Shown piece after piece: positions 2,492 through 11,671 of a stretch of DNA of 64,000 nucleotides (positions are counted from its first letter, which is position 1; every line of letters starts with the position of its first letter). A model generated the notes under the pieces. It made no database searches, was not told the origin of the DNA, and saw nothing but the letters and a program-made list of their open reading frames with translations. The stretch comes from Desulfobotulus pelophilus (GTDB lineage: Bacteria; Desulfobacterota; Desulfobacteria; Desulfobacterales; ASO4-4). Location: assembly GCF_026155325.1 (NCBI RefSeq), contig NZ_JAPFPW010000014.1, positions 1 to 64,000 of the forward strand, written 5' to 3'. The translations under genes were made by a program, and so were the position numbers.

Positions 2492-3517
2492 TCACCTCCA
2501 AAGAAAGGGAGGATAGCCATCCAGATCCCCCCGAAGATGTCGTGCCAGCAACCTTGCCTGAATGAAGGGTATCAGGCCTTTGGCTATCTTTTCATCTGTA
2601 AAAGGGTGGGTCAGGGTTTCCTGTTTCATTTTCTGCCATGCGGCCAGCACCCGTTTTCTGGCTTCATCTTCCAGGGTAACGGCTCCACTGTCAGGATTTG
2701 TTAGAAAGTCGGAGGCCCTGACTTGCTCCCGATTGATCAGGGATACTGTCAGGCGATCACAGAAAACAGGACGAAGTTCCTCCATCATGTCCAGGGCGAG
2801 ACTGGGCCGACCGGGCCTGTCCTTATGAAGAAAGCCTACGGCAGAATCCAGCCCCACGGTTTCCAGCGCACTTCTCACATCATGGACAAGCAGGGTGTAG
2901 AAGAGGGAAAGGAGAGCGTTGACGGCATCTTTGGGTGGTCTGCGGTTTCTGCCTGAAAAGGCAAAGGCCGGGTCGTCTTTTCGGATCAGATCCGGGAAGG
3001 CGGAGAAATAGGAACGGGCAGCGTCCCCTTCCATCCCACGGGCTGTATCGCAATCTTCTATAGAAGTAAGTTTGCGTATGCGGTCGGAAAGAAGTTTTTC
3101 CGTTTCTCGCAGGGCAGGGGTTTCCCCGTGATCCCGGATGCACCGCAGGAGCGCCTGACGACAGTTGTAGAGCTTGCCTGCCACAAAGGCAGCGGCAAGG
3201 GTTCCGGATTTATCCGCAATATCTGCAGCGCGGTACTGCGCCCGACGCAGCAGCACATTGCCATGCAGGGGGCCATGCACCTTGGCAAGAAAACGGCCCG
3301 TATCCGTGAGAAAGGTTACGGCCACATTGCGCTCCGCACAGAAACCCATCAGCCATGGACTCATGCCCACTGTACCAAAGCACACAATGCCGGAAATTCC
3401 GTGTATGGGAATTTTCATGTCCGGCCCTTCTTCCAAGCGGATACGAATGGTTTCCCTTTCCTTGGAAAGATAGGCCCCCGGTTTGGTGATATAAAGGATG
3501 TTTTGCAGAGGTTTCAT
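2492..3517 (-). CDS. cas1: CRISPR-associated endonuclease/integrase Cas1 (type I-C)
   Basis: 341 residues, full length for Cas1, which with Cas2 inserts new spacers at the leader end. The metal-binding residues can be placed: Glu163 in the RGMEGDAARSYF segment, His231 in GFLHKDRPGRP, and the acidic pair Asp243 and Glu246/247 in LALDMMEELRP. The start ATG overlaps the cas4 stop in an ATGA junction, so translation of the two is probably coupled. Nothing in the protein looks damaged, so adaptation is likely functional. Confidence 0.97.
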   Translation of the reverse strand: MKPLQNILYITKPGAYLSKERETIRIRLEEGPDMKIPIHGISGIVCFGTVGMSPWLMGFCAERNVAVTFLTDTGRFLAKVHGPLHGNVLLRRAQYRAADIADKSGTLAAAFVAGKLYNCRQALLRCIRDHGETPALRETEKLLSDRIRKLTSIEDCDTARGMEGDAARSYFSAFPDLIRKDDPAFAFSGRNRRPPKDAVNALLSLFYTLLVHDVRSALETVGLDSAVGFLHKDRPGRPSLALDMMEELRPVFCDRLTVSLINREQVRASDFLTNPDSGAVTLEDEARKRVLAAWQKMKQETLTHPFTDEKIAKGLIPFIQARLLARHLRGDLDGYPPFLWR

Positions 3518-4149
3518 GTGAGATCCTCGGAAAGCCGTTTTTGCAGCCAGAGTTTTGCAGATTTGGCTTTGGGCTGACAGATGTCAAAAAGGGAGCAGCG
3601 GTCACAGCGGTCTTTCCGGTACCTGGCCTTTGGCAGTACGCCGCTTTCCATCATGGCATGGTATTCCATGGCCGTCTGGCGGGTAAGCTCCCTCAGGGCA
3701 GCATCAAAAGGAACGGTTTCTCGTCTTCTCGGGCTTGCGTAGAAAAGAAAACCTTCCCGTATTTCTGTATGCAGCATTTCTTCCAGGCAGATGGCTTGTG
3801 CGCAAAGCTGAACCCGATCCGCCTCAATCAGCTTGGGTTTTCCACGCTTGTATTCCACTGGTACGGGCTGCCAGATTTCTTTTTCGATTTTATGAAATTC
3901 CACGCAGTCCGCCACGCCAAAAAGACCGAGGGAAAGGCTTTTCAACGGCATGGCGTAGCAGAGGCGTACTCCGGATTTTTCCTGTTCTCCGCCTTTATCT
4001 ACCCGCTCATGCAGTACACGGCCTTCGGCGGTGAAGCGATTTTCCTCCCATTCCCGATCCACATGGATAAGTCCGCACTGGCGGGGACAATAGATCATGT
4101 GCTGCATACCGGAGACGGGAAGAAAATCGGCTTCAGGATACATAATCAA
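3514..4149 (-). CDS. cas4: CRISPR-associated exonuclease Cas4
   Basis: 211 residues, a RecB-family nuclease with a 4Fe-4S cluster that trims prespacers and selects their PAM end. Cluster ligands are probably Cys21 (YCPRQC) plus Cys182, Cys185 and Cys191 in CDRCSLFDIC. The nuclease motif III lysine is in the VEYKRGK segment. The gene overlaps cas7 upstream and cas1 downstream with ATGA junctions. Its presence between cas7 and cas1 is characteristic of subtype I-C and implies that spacer uptake is PAM-selective here. Confidence 0.95.
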   Translation of the reverse strand: MIMYPEADFLPVSGMQHMIYCPRQCGLIHVDREWEENRFTAEGRVLHERVDKGGEQEKSGVRLCYAMPLKSLSLGLFGVADCVEFHKIEKEIWQPVPVEYKRGKPKLIEADRVQLCAQAICLEEMLHTEIREGFLFYASPRRRETVPFDAALRELTRQTAMEYHAMMESGVLPKARYRKDRCDRCSLFDICQPKAKSAKLWLQKRLSEDLT

Positions 4150-4988
4150 AAACCTTCTATGATTTCAGGTTCTAATCCTGCAAGCGGCTCCATGTCGAAG
4201 AAGGGTGCCTCGCCTTTGGGGTTGAGACTTCTGTGGACTTTGGCAGAGGAATACTGTCCAGATTTGCAGTTATGTTTCCACCAGAAGACTTTTTCGACAA
4301 CAAGGGAGCCTTCTGGTCGAGCCGACGAAGCATCGTTTTCAAAAAGTTTTGGCAGAATCTGTTTGATAGTTTCGGCATCCTCATCATTGAATCCGGTTTT
4401 TTCGGAAAGCTGTGGATTCATGCTTCCATAGAAAATATAGATTCCCTGATCTATACGATGCTTCATACCCATGGTATCGGAGCCTCTTTTTGTTCCATCA
4501 CCTTCACCGCTGACACTTTTTGTGATTTGAGTACTGGTGATTGAAACGGGGGCGATACTGAAGGCTGACTGAACAGAGACAGGCCCTCGAATGGGAATGG
4601 AAACACCTTTCGTTTCGTCACCTCCAAAGGCAAAGAGTTGACCAAAAGCCCTTACATCCAGCCATTTTTTACATGCGGCTTTTATGGTTTCATCGGGTTT
4701 CGTTTTTTTTGCGTTAAAGGCTTCCTTTCCTAATCCGAATTCGGCCGATTCGGCCCTTTCTTTCAGACTGCCCATTCCATCAATTTTACGGTCGTCAGAT
4801 TGAACAAAAATAGGGTGGCCTTTTTCGGAGAGACGATCCCGGATTTTTCTTTTAATACAGACATCCGTCACTTCTCCAAATCCGTCATAGTTGATACGGG
4901 GGCGATTGCCGTTCAAAGGGTCACCGTTTGGGTTAGCATTTTTGACTGAAAAAATTACGGCAAAGTCAATTTTGTTTGAAAGACTCAT
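4146..4988 (-). CDS. cas7c: Cascade backbone protein Cas7c (Csd2)
   Basis: 280 residues, a Csd2/Csh2-family RAMP protein. Multiple copies coat the spacer part of the crRNA in the I-C Cascade complex. The N-terminus (KIDFAVIFSVKNANPNGDP) carries the family's NPNGDP motif and is followed by a GNRPRINYDGFGEVTDVCIKRKIRDR-type segment typical of Csd2. ATGA overlaps on both sides (cas8c, cas4) point to coupled translation. Length and motifs are normal. Confidence 0.96.
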   Translation of the reverse strand: MSLSNKIDFAVIFSVKNANPNGDPLNGNRPRINYDGFGEVTDVCIKRKIRDRLSEKGHPIFVQSDDRKIDGMGSLKERAESAEFGLGKEAFNAKKTKPDETIKAACKKWLDVRAFGQLFAFGGDETKGVSIPIRGPVSVQSAFSIAPVSITSTQITKSVSGEGDGTKRGSDTMGMKHRIDQGIYIFYGSMNPQLSEKTGFNDEDAETIKQILPKLFENDASSARPEGSLVVEKVFWWKHNCKSGQYSSAKVHRSLNPKGEAPFFDMEPLAGLEPEIIEGF

Positions 4989-6943
4989 GCGTTTTCTCCT
5001 TTATCATTTGATCTTTTAAATTCTCTCCGCTGACAATGGAAACCAAGCAGGTATTCTCCAGAAAGCCGGGTATCATTCATATAGTCTGATCTTTCGAAAA
5101 GGGCATGGACATCATCCAAGAGTTTGTTCATGTTGGTGAGAAAGCTAGGGCGAAGACTATGGAGTCTCTGCATGTAAGGCTGGAGAGATTTTTCTATGGT
5201 AAGCCAGGTTGAGCAGGGGTAGTCAGCAAAGCGCTGCATCAGCCGGTTTGCTGCTGTGGGGTGAGAATTGCCATTGGGGTTGGCTGCATATAAGGCGATG
5301 GCTTCAATATGATCCGCAATGGCGAGAAGTCGTCCGTAAAGGTAGTCTCTTGAGGTACATGTTACATCCAGAGCCATGGAATATTCCTTCCGTTTTTTAG
5401 GGTCGGGGTGTCGGATATGAAAACTGCGGTAAAGGGCACAGGCCACGCCCATGCATTTTTCCCATTCCCAGTGTTCCATTCCGATTCGGTTTGAAGTTCT
5501 GCTTATACAGCTTGTCATGAGATCAAGCGGTACCTGCTGACCATCCATGATGCAGGGAACAAGGCGCTCAATGGTTGCTTTTTTAAGCTTGTCGTCCAGC
5601 CTTTGCCCAAAGGCTGCTTCTGCGATGTTTTTGGGTGATGGAGCGGAAAGTGACCAAAACACTTCTTTCTTTTTATTTTTTGTATCATTCTTTTTTCGGG
5701 TAAGACGTTGCCACCAAACGGAATCCGTATGCCAGTTTTCCAGCCGCACTAAAAATTCGGAACCAAGCAGTTCCCGGTAATAGATGATACTCATGCGTCC
5801 AGGGGTGGCAGAGTCCAGTCCGATCATGACAATGTCTTCGGTTGGTGAGATTGTTTTAGCATAACCCTTAATGAAAGATTTCAGTTTTGAGGCAAAGCGT
5901 TGGCCTGCATCCCGTGTATGATCTGGCGATTGGGGAATTTCTTCTTCCGTGAATGGCGTGTCTTCATCCCAGAGCTCATGTGTTTCTGTTAAAGGCTGGG
6001 GGATGGTTTTTCCGGATACGGCCCAGCAGACAAAGGCTTGATCACCATTGCGGACACCCTGGCGAGAGATCAGCCATGCAAGGGAACTGTGGGTCTTTTG
6101 TGATATAACGCTTCCGACAGAGCATGCCTGCAGGTTCTCGGTAAAACGTCCACGATAGGTATAGCCGGTATTGTCATTTGCCGAGATAAGCTTGGCTTTG
6201 TCTCCTGAGTGGCGGAGTTTGGCTGGATGCTGGTTTGCAATAAGAGTTTTTTTACCTTCAACATGACAAAATCCTTCTCCTTGATTTTGATCTTGCAGAT
6301 AGGATATCCAGGCATTTTGTAGAGATTTGTCTCCCCATGTATCACTTTCGGGATCTCCAGGGATGTGGATACTCCAGCATACCAGAGCATCCCCTTGATC
6401 CTGAACGGCTTTTCCTTTCACTTTTTTTTTGGTCAACATACGGAAAATGGGTGGAACAGCCCCTTCTTCCTCTGGCCAAGATGTTCGAAGAATATTTTGG
6501 TTGTCTGTAAAAAGGACTCCGCAGGAAATAAGATCCTGTACGAGCTGTTCTTTTTTTGCGTAGCGTAAAACAGCCTGTACTTTGTGATGTGTGTATGGGG
6601 AGTTTGCCCAGCCAGAAAGAAGTTTTAAATATGATTTAAAATAGCTTTTTTTGGTACCGCCATATTTTGCATAGTCTCCTCCGCAGTACTGGATTTTATC
6701 AATCAGGGGATGTGGAGCTTCTCCGCTTGTTCTACCTGCTGATTTTTCAGTGGCGGGTAGGGGGATGAGTAGCTTATCCAAGATGCTCGCGCGTTTGAAA
6801 TTCCCATAGTTGTCAATTTCGATATGGATATGTGCCTGTTGTACGGTATGTCCGATGGGAAGAAGTCGGGCCTGTTCTGTCATCAGTTGTTCGTTGTTGC
6901 AGCAGGCTTCATATGTTTCATAGAGTTTTTGAATCCAGCTCAT
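4985..6943 (-). CDS. cas8c: Cascade large subunit Cas8c (Csd1)
   Basis: 652 residues, Csd1 family. This subunit recognises the PAM (5'-TTC in known I-C systems). In I-C an internal start in this gene can also yield the small subunit Cas11c. Two in-frame ATGs exist, at 6949 and 6943. I chose 6943 because it gives an ATGA overlap with the cas5c stop, as at the other junctions from cas5c to cas1, and it sits eight bases after a GAGGAG Shine-Dalgarno sequence, whereas 6949 is only two bases away from it. The N-terminus MSWIQKLYETYE is typical of the family. Confidence 0.94.
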   Translation of the reverse strand: MSWIQKLYETYEACCNNEQLMTEQARLLPIGHTVQQAHIHIEIDNYGNFKRASILDKLLIPLPATEKSAGRTSGEAPHPLIDKIQYCGGDYAKYGGTKKSYFKSYLKLLSGWANSPYTHHKVQAVLRYAKKEQLVQDLISCGVLFTDNQNILRTSWPEEEGAVPPIFRMLTKKKVKGKAVQDQGDALVCWSIHIPGDPESDTWGDKSLQNAWISYLQDQNQGEGFCHVEGKKTLIANQHPAKLRHSGDKAKLISANDNTGYTYRGRFTENLQACSVGSVISQKTHSSLAWLISRQGVRNGDQAFVCWAVSGKTIPQPLTETHELWDEDTPFTEEEIPQSPDHTRDAGQRFASKLKSFIKGYAKTISPTEDIVMIGLDSATPGRMSIIYYRELLGSEFLVRLENWHTDSVWWQRLTRKKNDTKNKKKEVFWSLSAPSPKNIAEAAFGQRLDDKLKKATIERLVPCIMDGQQVPLDLMTSCISRTSNRIGMEHWEWEKCMGVACALYRSFHIRHPDPKKRKEYSMALDVTCTSRDYLYGRLLAIADHIEAIALYAANPNGNSHPTAANRLMQRFADYPCSTWLTIEKSLQPYMQRLHSLRPSFLTNMNKLLDDVHALFERSDYMNDTRLSGEYLLGFHCQRREFKRSNDKGENA

Positions 6944-7659
6944 AAGCATGTCTCCTCAATCTCTACGTGTCGCAGGTTCTTGCCGAGTTCAAATTGCTTG
7001 GGTTCCATGGGCCGAATAAATTTTCGGATAGTACAGTCTTCAGGTTTCGGGAATTCGATAATGCCGTGTTTCATGACAGGGTACCAGAAACGGGTTTTTA
7101 AAGCGTTTTCTCCTGTTTCATCGGGGTAGTCAAAACCATGAAACATCAATCCAAAGCCTAGTTCATCCAAGCCGTCATAGTCACTTTTTCCTTCACCAAA
7201 TTCACAGGGTTCCACATATCCCTGGCAGTCCCGCGTCCCAAGAAAGATGTCTTGCCTTCCTCCTTTCTCCAGCATTCGTTTTGCAATGGCGTAGTGTTTG
7301 CCATTAATGCGATCGGGTGCCAGTTCTGTTCGGTATTCATTCCATACAAAGTAGGCTTCAACCTGATACTCGACGTTGGCAAGAAATGTGTAGATTGCAA
7401 GACTGTTGCCTCCACTAAAGGAGATCGGTTTCATTCCTTTGGTCTGGGTGCGGATAGGGTTCATGATCCGTACTTTTTTAATTTTCCATATGAGGGTTGG
7501 TTTTGAGTATATGGATTTGACCACGCCTTTCAGTGCATCATAGGTTGGCACATGATAAGAACATTTTTCTCCCCCGATCCGTGACGTTGGATCTGTAAAC
7601 AGGGCGTATCGCCCGCTTACTTTAAAGCTGATACTGTTTTTTATGATTCCATTTTTCAA
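6940..7659 (-). CDS. cas5c: Cas5c crRNA-processing endonuclease
   Basis: 239 residues. Type I-C lacks Cas6, and Cas5c (Cas5d) cuts pre-crRNA at the base of the repeat hairpin and then stays on the 11-nt 5' tag. Lys121-His122 in NGKHYAIAKRML correspond to the catalytic Lys-His pair known from Bacillus halodurans Cas5d, and Tyr51 or Tyr40 could supply the third residue. The start codon is TTG at 7659, supported by a perfect AGGAGG five bases upstream; there is no upstream in-frame ATG that fits. It is the first gene of the six-gene Cascade/adaptation operon and has its own upstream regulatory region. Confidence 0.95.
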   Translation of the reverse strand: MKNGIIKNSISFKVSGRYALFTDPTSRIGGEKCSYHVPTYDALKGVVKSIYSKPTLIWKIKKVRIMNPIRTQTKGMKPISFSGGNSLAIYTFLANVEYQVEAYFVWNEYRTELAPDRINGKHYAIAKRMLEKGGRQDIFLGTRDCQGYVEPCEFGEGKSDYDGLDELGFGLMFHGFDYPDETGENALKTRFWYPVMKHGIIEFPKPEDCTIRKFIRPMEPKQFELGKNLRHVEIEETCL

Positions 7660-7699
7660 GGAAACCTCCTCGTATTAAGCCGTAGAATCTATTTTACAC

Positions 7700-7761
7700 C
7701 CAAATTTATATTTTTTTTACTTCATTACATATGAATACTTTTGTTTGGTTCAAGATGTCAA
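7700..7761 (-). promoter_or_regulatory. Putative cas5-8-7-4-1-2 promoter overlapped by a guide target site
   Basis: On the minus strand TGTAAT (7729-7724) is a good -10 element, with TTGAAC (7753-7748) 18 bp upstream. A perfect TTGACA (7761-7756) is 18 bp from the weaker TATTCA (7737-7732). A 5'-TTC-3' PAM at 7735-7733 is followed by a sequence starting at 7732. That sequence matches the first 18 positions of the degenerate spacer at 7824-7792 except at 6, 9 and 12. The TGTAAT hexamer lies inside this target at positions 4-9. Promoter elements and target are seen in the sequence; their use is inferred. Confidence 0.6.
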
Positions 7762-7778
7762 TGGCATTTTTTTGAAAA

Positions 7779-7846
7779 GTGGTGGGGCGATTTTTTCTGT
7801 TTACCATTTTACATCGTTTCATATATTTCAATCCACGCCCCACCGA
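7779..7846 (-). ncRNA. Putative crRNA-like regulatory guide (degenerate repeat-spacer-repeat)
   Basis: Within the 239-bp cas3-cas5c gap, the minus strand at 7841-7825 reads GGGGCGTGGATTGAAAT, identical to the last 17 bases of the CRISPR repeat except the final base. After exactly 33 nt (7824-7792), the native spacer length, ATCGCCCC (7791-7784) matches the start of the repeat after its first base. The remaining repeat halves are lost, but GGTGGGGCG in the first half-repeat and CGCCCCACC in the second are perfectly complementary. The 5' tag needed for Cascade loading is thus kept. The architecture resembles CreA/CreR guides of other CRISPR subtypes. Transcription and processing are inferred. 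Confidence 0.72.
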
Positions 7847-7851
7847 TGGCT

Positions 7852-7880
7852 ATATTAACGTTATTTGTGTGAAAAATCAA
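7852..7880 (-). promoter_or_regulatory. Candidate promoter of the crRNA-like guide
   Basis: On the minus strand TTGATT (7880-7875) and TAATAT (7857-7852) are separated by 17 bp. They would start transcription near 7846-7845, immediately before the conserved part of the first degenerate repeat. Each hexamer has four of six consensus bases, so this is a modest match. Its position right after cas3 and right before the guide is what a dedicated guide promoter would require. Read-through from cas3 is the alternative. Confidence 0.4.
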
Positions 7881-7898
7881 TTTTTTGCAACAGGCAAA

Positions 7899-10367
7899 CT
7901 ATATGATCCTTTCTTCCATTAGGGCTACGATTTCTTCGGAAAGCCCGTAGTCGGGACTGTAGAAACGTTCATCCAGAACATAGATCCCGAGTTCTGGGAT
8001 GGGGTGGATGGCTTTTTCATTTTCTAATTTTTTAACCATGTAGGGAAAAATGTTGACGGTATATTTTTGGGCTTTCCGGAGTATTCCTTTCTGGGTTTTT
8101 GGGTGAAAGGCCGCATAAAGTTCTCCAATGATAATTTTTGCTTCTTCATTATAGGGAACAATGATTCCATGGGTTGGTGCGTCAATGGGCTTAAAGGCTT
8201 TGGCAGCCGTAGCAAAGGATTGGCGCAGCATTGCTGGACAGATCATGTTTCCAGGATTCAGAGGATTGCATGAAAGCAGGTTGAGAATGGTTTCATCAAG
8301 GGCATGAATTTTTCCAGGGATGGGATAGGTCATTTCAGATTTACGATTATGGAAGCTGTATTGGAAATAGCGTTCGATGACAAGGGGATTAGAGAGGTCA
8401 TTGTTAAACTCTTGTGGCTTTTCCCTGTACTCATCAAGAATCCTCAGGGATATTTCTTTTCCAATTTTGATGTCAGGCAGCATCCCGATGGGTTCCTTAT
8501 CGGGATTGATAATGAGAACATGGCCTATGTCCTTTTCCATATGCCGATTGCAGCGACCCGCTGCCTGGAGGATGGAATCCATTCCAGCGACAAAGCGAAT
8601 GACAGAGCCAAAGCTGATATCAACGCCTGCTTCAATAAGCTGGGTGCTGATGCAGAGAATAGGCTTGGTATTTTTATCCGGCTGCTTCGGGTCTGGCAGA
8701 CGGTTTCTGATTTGATTTAGAATTTCCATACGATGTACCGGACACATATCTGTACTGAGGTGAAAGACAGGTTCCGTATCTTCAAGCATACTGGAACAGA
8801 CTTGGAAGAGTTTTCTTGCCCAGCTTTTTGTGTTCACGATAACAAGACAGTGTTCTTTTGTTTTGAAGGTTTCCAAGACCTTGGCGGCTACATCATCCAG
8901 ACTCCACCCTGATGGTTTATACAGATTTAGAATTTCAACCCTTTTCAATTGATGGAAGAGGGTGAGGATATCAGGAATAATCTCATTGGATTGAGACAGT
9001 TGCAATGCCCCATATTCCGGCGCAACTTTGCCGATGAGGGGTTGGGTGGCTGTACAGAGAACGGCAGAGGTTTGGCAATGATTGGTCAGATAGTTCAGGG
9101 CATTGCAGAAGAGGTGGATGCATTTGATGGGAAGTGTTTGGATCTCATCAAAAATAATGATGCTTTTTGCCATTCTATGCATCCGTCTTGCACTGCTGGT
9201 TCGGTTTCCAAAAAGGGCTTCTAGGAATTGGACTGTTGTGGTGAAGATGACTGGGGCATCCCAATTTTCACCAAGCAGGCGGTTTCTGTCGAAGCGTTTT
9301 TGTTCTTCTTCACTTTCTTCTTTGGGATCAAGGTTTGAATGATGCTCCAGAACAATGCTGCCCGGAATTGAATCTGCTTCAAGGATTTTTCTGGCTTCCT
9401 GGGCGTTCTGATCAATGATTGATGTGTAGGGAATAACGTAGATGATTCGTTCGAGCTTATGTTTTTCTGCGTGCTGGAGAGCGAATCGCAGGGTGGCAAG
9501 GGTTTTACCCCCACCTGTCGGGACGGTCAGGGTGAAGATTCCTTTTTCATCTTGAGCGCGTTCTCGGCAGCAGTCTGATATTTGTTTTCGAATTTTGTCG
9601 ATGGGGGACTGGTCAGAAAAGCATGCTAAATGATTTTCAAGGTGTTTGATCAGAACAGGCCAGTCTGGCGTTACTTCTTCTTGAACCAGTCCTGAATCCT
9701 TTCCAATGGAAGCTGCATCCGTACGGTCTGCATCAATGAGGCAGCTGTAGAGAAAACGGGTAGCAAGACCAAACTGGAAGGCTGTGATGGGATTTTTTGC
9801 AGCACAAACTCGGGAACATTTGGCGCATGCGGCAGAAACTTCTGAATCGCAGGTGTTTTTTTTGCGTATTTGGCCAAAATGATTTTTGATTTCTTCAATG
9901 GCTTCGTTCAGAAGTATTGAGGCTTTTGTGAGAATATCATTGGGAATAACGGAAAGGATTTCATCAAGGGTGCTTTCTTTTTTCATACGTTTTGTAAAGG
10001 TGTCTGTTTCACCATCCTCAGAGAGACAGTCAAGGAGGGATGAATGGTGGGAGCTGATGGCAAGGGCAAGAATTTGGCCACATAAATACCGGATGTGGGT
10101 GGTGTTTTGGATTTTTTCCCAGATCCATTGGGCTCCGGGGGTTGAGTGGTCGCCCCCCTTTGTTTCTAGCCCCTCAAGATAGTTTTGAAATTTTTCAGAA
10201 TATTTTCCCATGTCATGGAGAAGACCTACCAAGCATCCTGCTGATGAAAGCCCAATTTTTGACGTAAAGCCGGAAGTTTGATCGCTGACAGCAAGAAGGT
10301 GTTGACTGAGCGTTTGCCAGTCTTCCTTTGTTGGATTTTCCGTTGTACGGGCATAAAATTGGCGCAT
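7899..10367 (-). CDS. cas3: CRISPR-associated helicase-nuclease Cas3 (HD + DExH)
   Basis: 822 residues. Cas3 is recruited by target-bound Cascade and degrades DNA. The N-terminal HD nuclease shows His51-Asp52 in GLLHDMGK. The SF2 helicase shows Walker A PTGGGKT near residue 280 and the DEIQ Walker B near residue 404. The open frame extends upstream to 10484, but the ATG at 10367 has AAGGAG five bases away, and the extra 39 residues are an unrelated hydrophobic stretch. The gene is separated from cas5c by 239 bp carrying the guide element, so its expression can be uncoupled from Cascade. Confidence 0.96.
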   Translation of the reverse strand: MRQFYARTTENPTKEDWQTLSQHLLAVSDQTSGFTSKIGLSSAGCLVGLLHDMGKYSEKFQNYLEGLETKGGDHSTPGAQWIWEKIQNTTHIRYLCGQILALAISSHHSSLLDCLSEDGETDTFTKRMKKESTLDEILSVIPNDILTKASILLNEAIEEIKNHFGQIRKKNTCDSEVSAACAKCSRVCAAKNPITAFQFGLATRFLYSCLIDADRTDAASIGKDSGLVQEEVTPDWPVLIKHLENHLACFSDQSPIDKIRKQISDCCRERAQDEKGIFTLTVPTGGGKTLATLRFALQHAEKHKLERIIYVIPYTSIIDQNAQEARKILEADSIPGSIVLEHHSNLDPKEESEEEQKRFDRNRLLGENWDAPVIFTTTVQFLEALFGNRTSSARRMHRMAKSIIIFDEIQTLPIKCIHLFCNALNYLTNHCQTSAVLCTATQPLIGKVAPEYGALQLSQSNEIIPDILTLFHQLKRVEILNLYKPSGWSLDDVAAKVLETFKTKEHCLVIVNTKSWARKLFQVCSSMLEDTEPVFHLSTDMCPVHRMEILNQIRNRLPDPKQPDKNTKPILCISTQLIEAGVDISFGSVIRFVAGMDSILQAAGRCNRHMEKDIGHVLIINPDKEPIGMLPDIKIGKEISLRILDEYREKPQEFNNDLSNPLVIERYFQYSFHNRKSEMTYPIPGKIHALDETILNLLSCNPLNPGNMICPAMLRQSFATAAKAFKPIDAPTHGIIVPYNEEAKIIIGELYAAFHPKTQKGILRKAQKYTVNIFPYMVKKLENEKAIHPIPELGIYVLDERFYSPDYGLSEEIVALMEERII

Positions 10368-10498: not shown

Positions 10499-11461
10499 TT
10501 ACACCTCATAATTCCCCAGACTTTTTTTCAACGCCTCCACCACCTCCATCTTCAGGCTTTCCGGGCTTTCTACTTTTACCCCCGGTCCGTGGCGCAGAAT
10601 CTCCCGCACAAGCTCCGTGGAGCTGTTGTAAGGCAGAGATAAAAGCAGGGTGTCGCCGTCCCAGCGGGTCATCTGATTTTTATGCCACTTTTCATCCTTC
10701 ACCCAGCGGGCGTTGGGCTGGTAAAAGCGCAGAAAGGCCGTGTTCTCCGCTTTACCAGCAAAAATGCCAAATCCGCTTTCCGTGTGGTCCTTTACTTTTT
10801 TCGGGTCAAGAATATCGGCAGGAATATCCGGCATGCCCAGAATGGAGATGCGGTCCATGGACAGGGTGCGCAGCTCCTTTCGCAGCTCGCAGAAGGCCAC
10901 CAGATACCAGTTGATCTGGTATTGAATGAGTTTCTGGGGGTGAATGCGCCGGTTTTCCACCTTGTTGTCGCTTCGGGAGTGGTAGCGGATATCCAGCACC
11001 CGCTCTTGAAGAAGGGCGCGGCATACGGCGGCAAACACGGGTCTTTCAAGCTGGCGTTGATAAATGGGCATTACCTGTACGCAGCGCGCGATGAGGCCGG
11101 GATCATGGCCAAGCTTCTGCAGGGCTTTATCCAGTTTTTCCCGGACAGGAACCAGAAATGGTGCCATGGCAGCCTTTTCTTCCGTATCCGTCACTTCCTG
11201 AAGAAGCCTCAGGGCATAGAGTTCCGTCTGGCTGAGCCAGAATCCGGGCAGCTCAAAGGTTCCGGTATCCGTGTTATAAAGGTAGCCGTGCTTTTGTTTA
11301 TTGTAGACGATGGGGGCGTCGAAATAATCTCTCATGTACTGAATATCCCGTTTAATACTGGAGCGGGATTTTTCCATTTCTTCTTCCATGCGGGAAAGGG
11401 AGATGCAGTTGCCTGTCTGGAGAAGGGCGTCAATGCGGTAAATACGTTCTAGCTGGTTCAT
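10499..11461 (-). CDS. WYL-domain transcriptional regulator, CRISPR-linked
   Basis: 320 residues. The first ~65 residues are a DeoR-like winged helix (MNQLERIYRIDALLQ, then SSIKRDIQYMRDYF). The middle and C-terminal part is a WYL domain (KLIQYQINWYLVAF, then LRTLSMDRI). WYL proteins sense ligands, often nucleic acid, and commonly control CRISPR and other defence loci. I chose the ATG at 11461, which has GGAG seven bases upstream; the frame start at 11500 has no ribosome site. It is immediately upstream of cas3 on the same strand, so it probably controls cas genes and perhaps itself. Confidence 0.85.
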   Translation of the reverse strand: MNQLERIYRIDALLQTGNCISLSRMEEEMEKSRSSIKRDIQYMRDYFDAPIVYNKQKHGYLYNTDTGTFELPGFWLSQTELYALRLLQEVTDTEEKAAMAPFLVPVREKLDKALQKLGHDPGLIARCVQVMPIYQRQLERPVFAAVCRALLQERVLDIRYHSRSDNKVENRRIHPQKLIQYQINWYLVAFCELRKELRTLSMDRISILGMPDIPADILDPKKVKDHTESGFGIFAGKAENTAFLRFYQPNARWVKDEKWHKNQMTRWDGDTLLLSLPYNSSTELVREILRHGPGVKVESPESLKMEVVEALKKSLGNYEV

Positions 11462-11671
11462 GGCAAAACTCCGTACAAGGTCAGTGATAAGGTTGGGCAT
11501 GTTTTGGCAAAGAGTCCCTTGGCAATATCACAAAAAGACCGTATAGCAAGAAGAAACACTCTTTTCCTGAGATAAGTCCGGAAAAGATGAAACGAGCATG
11601 CTTCCGGCAGACCTGCGGTCCGGGAAGCTTCCGGGAGTGCACACACAAAAAGTGAAAGAAGGTTTCTTGGT

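Follow-up and report, generated by a model that had tools for sequence, protein, structure and literature searches.

A leftover-repeat guide by which a type I-C CRISPR system of Desulfobotulus pelophilus probably throttles its own production

The type I-C locus and the guide unit in its cas3-cas5c gap

The window analyzed here, a stretch of 64,000 nucleotides of D. pelophilus, carries a CRISPR-Cas locus on its minus strand in the order cas3, a gap of 239 nt (7898-7660), cas5c-cas8c-cas7-cas4-cas1-cas2, and the array. The presence of cas5c, cas8c and cas7c together with cas3, cas4, cas1 and cas2, all identified by NCBIfam models above cut-off, assigns the locus to type I-C. The helicase/HD nuclease gene cas3 (7899-10367; models cas3_core and cas3_HD) lies upstream of, and outside, the putatively repressed unit. 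The first gene of this unit is cas5c (6940-7659; TIGR01876), which begins with TTG and has the ribosome-binding site AGGAGG (7665-7670) 5 nt ahead of its start, and it is followed by cas8c (4985-6949), cas7c (4146-4988; Cas7 (Csd2) model), cas4 (3514-4149), cas1c (2492-3517) and cas2 (2197-2520; homology from residue 12 on). Cas5c is the crRNA-processing enzyme of type I-C systems, as stated in a figure legend of PMC10651486. The array (1-1971) contains 30 copies of the repeat GTCGCCCCCCATGCGGGGGCGTGGATTGAAAC within the window, and four more repeats at the edge of another contig of the same genome (C10:53-261) suggest that it runs on across the contig break, from window position 1 to C10. Since no protospacer match to the array was found among phages, TTC is its presumed PAM. 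Directly upstream of cas3, a regulator with a WYL/WCX domain is encoded at 10499-11500 (minus strand); an ORF of 323 aa is found at the same place in each of three other I-C loci (L065, L066, L069).

The gap of 239 nt between cas3 and cas5c is unusual. Among the best 80 of 398 cas5c relatives, with the gap taken from the end of the nearest upstream ORF of more than 150 codons to the cas5 match, it was 43 nt or less in 72, exceeded 100 nt in six and was not measurable in two. One of these six, L059, has a gap of 2532 nt, possibly because of a broken cas3 reading.

Within the gap, a degenerate I-C repeat (7844-7825, minus strand) lies directly ahead of a 33-nt guide, or psi-spacer (7792-7824). 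The repeat, psiR1, retains its 3' stem arm GGTGGGGCG (7836-7844) and an intact 11-nt handle TGGATTGAAAT (7825-7835), while a perfect 5' arm is missing upstream. Where this arm would be expected, the sequence reads TAATAT (7857-7852), the -10 element of a putative guide promoter with TTGATT (7880-7875) 17 nt away; this promoter agrees with the consensus at 8 of 12 positions by eye and is absent from the list of a strict promoter scan. The guide is followed by a half repeat, psiR2 ATCGCCCCACC (7781-7791), similar to the opening part of a further repeat, and the terminator scan found no intrinsic terminator after the guide. The handle with its preceding G, GTGGATTGAAAY, occurs 35 times in the genome: 30 times in the array of the window, four times at the C10 edge and once here, the only copy outside the array. 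The unit is thus crRNA-like, is built on a degenerate repeat outside the array and adjoins the cas genes.

Match of the guide to the region before cas5c

On the minus strand, TTC (7735-7733) is followed by the protospacer ATATGTAATGAAGTAAAA (7732-7715), which agrees with the guide ATATGAAACGATGTAAAA at 15 of 18 positions, the mismatches falling at positions 6, 9 and 12. Past position 18 there is no further pairing run: only 2 of the 15 remaining positions match, giving 17 of 33 for the whole guide. These are exactly the coordinates, PAM and mismatches given in the first-pass annotation, and its statement that pairing stops after position 18 agrees with the count. When the 239-nt gap was shuffled 20,000 times with its dinucleotides preserved, no match of at least 15/18 next to TTC was obtained, while 45 shuffles reached 15/18 when the PAM was not required. 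The runner-up TTC site in the window, with 12/18, is worse by three positions. A genome-wide search with TTCATATGNAACGANGTAAAA, which joins TTC to the guide pattern, allowing up to three mismatches, recovered the target site at one mismatch, the guide itself at three and one other site at three, and the reversed control gave no match under the same conditions. A shorter guide pattern with up to two mismatches was found at four places in the genome, as was its reversed control; therefore, only the exact match, which is the target site, is informative there.

The target overlaps a putative cas5c promoter recognized by eye (TTGAAC, 7753-7748, and TGTAAT, 7729-7724, separated by 18 nt). The first-pass annotation had proposed TGTAAT as the -10 element. 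With TTGAAC upstream this is plausible, but the pair is not listed by the strict promoter scan (the hexamer has G at position 2), which reported a single promoter-like site in 7600-8000, on the plus strand, against an average of 1.4 in shuffled sequence. From the likely start site, a leader of about 57 nt with the AGGAGG motif leads to the TTG of cas5c, and no ORF of at least 20 aa other than cas5 starts on the cas strand in 7740-7621.

The guide therefore shows partial complementarity, beside a PAM, to sequence that precedes a cas gene, and since only the leader lies between the target and cas5c, the obvious target is cas5-8-7-4-1-2. The cited sections of PMC13131331 name types I-B, I-E and V-A as those with CreRs and describe partial complementarity of these RNAs to cas promoters. 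Because nothing but the leader, and no small ORF, precedes cas5c, a CreR fits the locus rather than the toxin-coupled CreTA, and we consider it very probable that the guide unit is a type I-C CreR that autorepresses cas5-8-7-4-1-2. The annotated idea of a Cascade guide acting on its own cas5 operon through deliberately partial pairing thus has good support in the sequence, while the exact promoter stays putative. Among the points against the CreR reading are the absence of both promoters from the strict scan, the mismatch at position 9, and the strand of the protospacer, which is the cas strand here but the opposite one in each of the five further modules presented below. The mismatch at position 9 is a weak point of the match; pairing runs to position 18, and one of the other modules, in L049, is likewise mismatched at this position.

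A repeat hairpin split around the guide

In the array repeat, a 7-bp stem (CGCCCCC/GGGGGCG) folds directly before the handle. In the guide unit, the psiR1 arm is predicted to pair instead across the guide, perfectly and over 9 bp, with CGCCCCACC (7789-7781). Such a downstream complement of the arm arose in only 2 of 50,000 shuffles of 7660-7824. By eye, the seventh pair from the base of the stem is A-U, compared with C-G in the array repeat, so that both sides have changed in what appears to be a compensatory change. The fold of -19.3 kcal/mol (shuffle mean -13.75 kcal/mol, z -1.9) was equaled or bettered by 12 of 200 shuffles; it is stable but not extreme, and moderately better than that of shuffled sequence.

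A 9-bp stem placed just before cas5, with a fold below the shuffle mean, could also act as an RNA terminator or attenuator of transcripts reading into cas5 from cas3 or the guide promoter, Cascade binding being secondary. We regard this as unlikely. Apart from the 12 shuffles with an equal or better fold, the stem is followed by no more than four T, the structure is unlisted by the terminator scan (whose loops are limited to 3-8), and the match between guide and target would be left unexplained.

Under the CreR reading, the single 9-bp helix around the guide would stand in for the two hairpins of a repeat-spacer-repeat unit, and Cas5c would cleave at its base. Nine solitary I-C repeats were compared for a perfect partner of the arm of at least 4 nt. 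In the window alone, a partner exists downstream but not upstream; it lies upstream in L016, L049 and L065, the complete mini-array of L040 has partners on both sides, and L041, L074, L121 and L009 have none on either side within the range tested. A pattern with the letters of the split stem was found in the genome of D. pelophilus alone among 395 genomes of the phylum, a search that is mute on split stems with other letters, and in none of the viral contigs. As far as the cited passages of the literature extend, this architecture may be undescribed for crRNAs or CreRs, and the split stem permits a direct test of the RNA features that Cas5c needs for processing.

In L074 (4675-4900), the stem of the degenerate repeat, CGTCCTTTCT/AGAAAGGACG, encloses about 180 nt that hold 44-nt inverted arms with 80% complementarity, resembling a REP-type palindrome. 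The loop of this hairpin thus probably carries a repeat-element insertion.

Comparable modules in other type I-C loci and the proposed autorepression

The cas5c of the window has no match at E <= 1e-40 in the two genus mates; among the best 80 of 398 relatives, identity to it does not exceed 74%, and a search of the class at E <= 1e-50 returned 22 of 389 genomes, its own included, the others reaching 71% identity at most. The 16 plasmid records all stayed below 60% identity. No copy of the guide unit or of the gap was found in another genome by searches of the genus, the class and the phylum; when the gap DNA was searched in the genus, the only match besides the window was one of 28 nt, in another contig of the same genome (C6) and in G002. 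In C6 it lies, by eye, inside a coding region, and it was treated as a coincidence. Since no relative with a copy of the gap was found, other type I-C loci were surveyed for an independent origin of this anatomy.

In total, 109 I-C loci including the window were surveyed (96 plus 13), which are distinct records and not all independent (L038 and L041 belong to one species); L018 and L068 have little upstream sequence. Dropped as copies were L001, L083 and L085 (of the window), L111-L115, and L154, L155 and L157-L160; the short versions L089-L106, L108 and L109 were replaced by L111-L130, and the sequence of L107 and L110 starts at the end of a contig. In a blind scan, every handle-like site (643) was taken with the guide that follows it, and a target of at least 15/18 beside TTC was sought within 900 nt. 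Six modules emerged: the window, L016 (Alteromonas), L041 (Pseudoalteromonas rubra), L049 (a Methylococcales MAG), L065 (Azonexus) and L074 (Methylobacter). With shuffled guides, 30 runs gave one match altogether, compared with six for the real guides.

The importance of the PAM became apparent when it was left out. A PAM-free survey of 96 loci with 629 handle-like sites gave 16 rows of at least 15/18, and the six rows with TTC are the six modules; the other ten come from L121 (three, A-rich), L024, L015, L021, L026, L035, L122 and L123, the last seven of these loci through handles with two mismatches. Guide-shuffled controls of this survey returned 6-19 rows per run in 20 runs, as many as the 16 real ones, a result probably due to matches in homologous coding sequence of other loci. 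Therefore, the PAM carries the signal, and only TTC together with a near-exact handle separates the modules from noise.

An earlier scan of 111 sequences, which required TTC and at least 9/10 in the seed, gave 12 rows, while ten guide-shuffled controls gave 1-4 rows each. These rows were the window and three copies of it, the five modules named above, and L019 (10/18), L047 (11/18) and L075 (12/18), which have low totals and were taken as chance. Of 19 further loci, six were duplicates and the other 13 contained no new module; one of the 13, L167, gave a row of 15/18 beside AGT instead of TTC, and this row looks palindromic. Among the 109 loci, no module beyond the six combined TTC with at least 15/18. 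L121 has a handle, a guide and a TTC target of 14/18 before a tiny ORF and, being A-rich, was kept outside the pooled counts; its solitary repeat lies upstream of cas3 (L121:3316 and 3556), and the cas5 match of its genome (G110) spans one stop codon. For the solitary repeats upstream of cas3 in L009 and L040, no target with a seed of at least 7/10 and at least 11/18 was found with four PAMs in the available sequence.

When the six modules were pooled, pairing was complete at positions 1-5 (30/30) and 10-11 (12/12), nearly so at 7-8 (11/12) and 13-18 (32/36), partial at 9 (4/6), low at 6 and at 12 (2/6 each), and fell to 22/90 at 19-33. Eight of the 11 mismatches within positions 1-14 fall at 6 or 12 (binomial p ~2e-5, independence assumed). 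The criterion of 15/18 could miss shorter pairing and does not force an end at 18. The concentration of mismatches at positions 6 and 12 and the end of pairing near 18 are thus found again in five unrelated I-C modules. In the cited parts of PMC8501985, a haloarchaeal CreA with a TTC PAM pairs at 1-5 and 7-11 and is insensitive to changes at 6 and 12, whereas altering any one of positions 1-5 or 7-11 lowered transformation about 10,000-fold. The agreement of the pooled signature with this pattern suggests that all six guides are read by Cascade and that pairing by I-C guides commonly spans about three segments of six bases.

The five other modules differ from the window in what their targets precede. 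Four of them (L016, L041, L049, L074) likewise lie inside the cas3-cas5 gap, and all five have a small ORF downstream of the target within about 230 nt; of the six, only the target of the window faces cas5 directly. The ORFs encode 63 aa in L016 (module at 4630-5002), at most 48 aa in L041 (3120-3400), 64 aa in L065 (2137-2433; 88 in another frame) and 50 aa in L074 (4441-4900), and in L016 and L041 they end within about 10 nt of the cas5 match. In L049 (4546-4958), the ORF about 230 nt from the target encodes a ParD-like antitoxin of 60 aa (Pfam PF11903). No Pfam family was found for those of L016, L041 and L065, and the match of L074 is weak and below cut-off; some of these four ORFs have a likely membrane helix by eye. 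From the size and place of the ORFs, we infer that the five are CRISPR-repressed toxin-type modules, those of L016, L041, L065 and L074 looking like unnamed CRISPR-repressed toxins.

Two strains of P. rubra differ in this region: the gap is 340 nt and holds the module in L041 (3070-3410), and is 32 nt in L038 (~4968-5001), the final 600 nt of cas3 being 94% identical. The module seems to have been gained or lost as a cassette.

These modules raise the alternative that the window, too, carries a CRISPR-regulated toxin-antitoxin (CreTA/CrePA) whose guide silences a toxin gene or a toxic RNA between the target and cas5. The five modules with the same pairing and a small ORF favor it, but the 7740-7621 interval offers no ORF besides cas5 at the threshold of 20 aa, a test that a toxic RNA without an ORF would escape, and the short stretch from the likely start site is taken up in part by the cas5 ribosome-binding site. 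We consider a toxin module here very unlikely. An equally small chance is given to a mini-array in decay, or a spacer derived from the genome itself, that no longer functions, as the 5' arm is missing from psiR1 and the 3' half from psiR2, and the guide is mismatched at position 9; against decay, the handle is intact, the 9-bp stem has been kept with one pair changed on both sides, and the mismatches fall mostly at positions unused by the published CreA, a pattern repeated in the five other loci. A chance match in AT-rich sequence, to which the 45 PAM-free shuffles and the high PAM-free survey controls would point, is scarcely credible given the shuffles with PAM, the distance to the next best TTC site and the single match in 30 shuffled-guide surveys.

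Returning to autorepression, a single crRNA-like guide would be made from the solitary degenerate repeat, and Cas5c, Cas7 and Cas8c would assemble on it and recognize TTC at 7735-7733. An R-loop of about 18 nt would then open over the cas5c promoter region and block transcription of cas5-8-7-4-1-2, while the lack of pairing past position 18 would keep Cas3 from cutting. Short R-loop pairing avoids Cas3 cutting in type I systems, and CreA offers a precedent for this. When abundant array crRNAs or an anti-CRISPR take Cascade away, repression would fall, by analogy with published CreRs, for which such release has precedent in the cited sections of PMC12737573, PMC12948488 and PMC13131331. In this way, the immune system probably throttles its own production by means of a guide from a leftover repeat.

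The closest known systems are the CreRs (Liu et al., 2023, Cell Host Microbe, as presented in PMC13131331, PMC12737573 and PMC12948488), which share a crRNA-like guide beside the cas genes, a partial match to a cas promoter, putative in the window, and the absence of a toxin gene. Whereas the published examples in these sections belong to types I-B, I-E and V-A, the window offers type I-C, putative processing by Cas5c, a split repeat hairpin and pairing to 18. CreTA/CreA, as described in passages of PMC8501985 and PMC9458426, has in common with it the degenerate psiR, TTC, free positions 6 and 12, seed-side pairing and the position at the cas locus, but silences a toxin and pairs at 1-5 and 7-11. 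In CrePA (Shu et al., 2025, as cited in part), CreA-guided repression by the Cas effector is directed at a protein toxin gene, which the five other modules resemble and the window, without a small gene at its target, does not. RacrIC1 and other RNA anti-CRISPRs also feature a solitary I-C repeat outside an array; according to the cited part of PMC10651486, they are virus-borne and inhibit Cas proteins instead of guiding them to a promoter, whereas the unit of the window lies between cas3 and cas5c, not apart from the cas genes, with a matched guide.

The principle of a self-repressing guide is already known as CreR, and we do not claim priority in type I-C. None of the literature matches listed concerned a type I-C CreR by title or abstract opening, Liu 2023 and Shmakov 2023 lying outside that set, and the term I-C is absent from the main texts of PMC8501985, PMC9458426, PMC12737573 and PMC12948488. 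Novelty may lie in the subtype, in the 18-nt signature that recurs among I-C modules and in the split hairpin. If the CreR reading is true, RNA-guided CRISPR autorepression extends to type I-C, where the maker of the guide, Cas5c, is also encoded by the first gene that the guide shuts off. In type II-A, tracr-L represses a cas promoter as a natural guide; its Cas9/tracrRNA machinery is unrelated to that of the window, and the likeness lies in a natural guide acting on a cas promoter.

A more far-reaching reading, which joins these features and which we put forward as tentative, is that of a circularly permuted minimal crRNA gene. Its transcript would start from the 3' arm and carry the 5' arm after the guide, so that one 9-bp helix closing around handle and guide forms a Cas5c processing site without a complete repeat. 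As a type I-C CreR, the unit would have replaced a continuous cas3-cas5 operon by a self-limiting cas5-8-7-4-1-2 operon, and the pairing of I-C regulatory guides would in general extend across three Cas7 segments (~18 nt) instead of two.

The signature of TTC, free positions 6 and 12 and pairing to about 18 provides a simple rule for finding more units. The survey of crRNA-like elements by Shmakov (2023) reportedly includes many type I mini-arrays. Among the loci surveyed here, a complete repeat-spacer-repeat mini-array lies just upstream of cas3 on a short contig of a Desulfosarcina MAG (L040:100-260).
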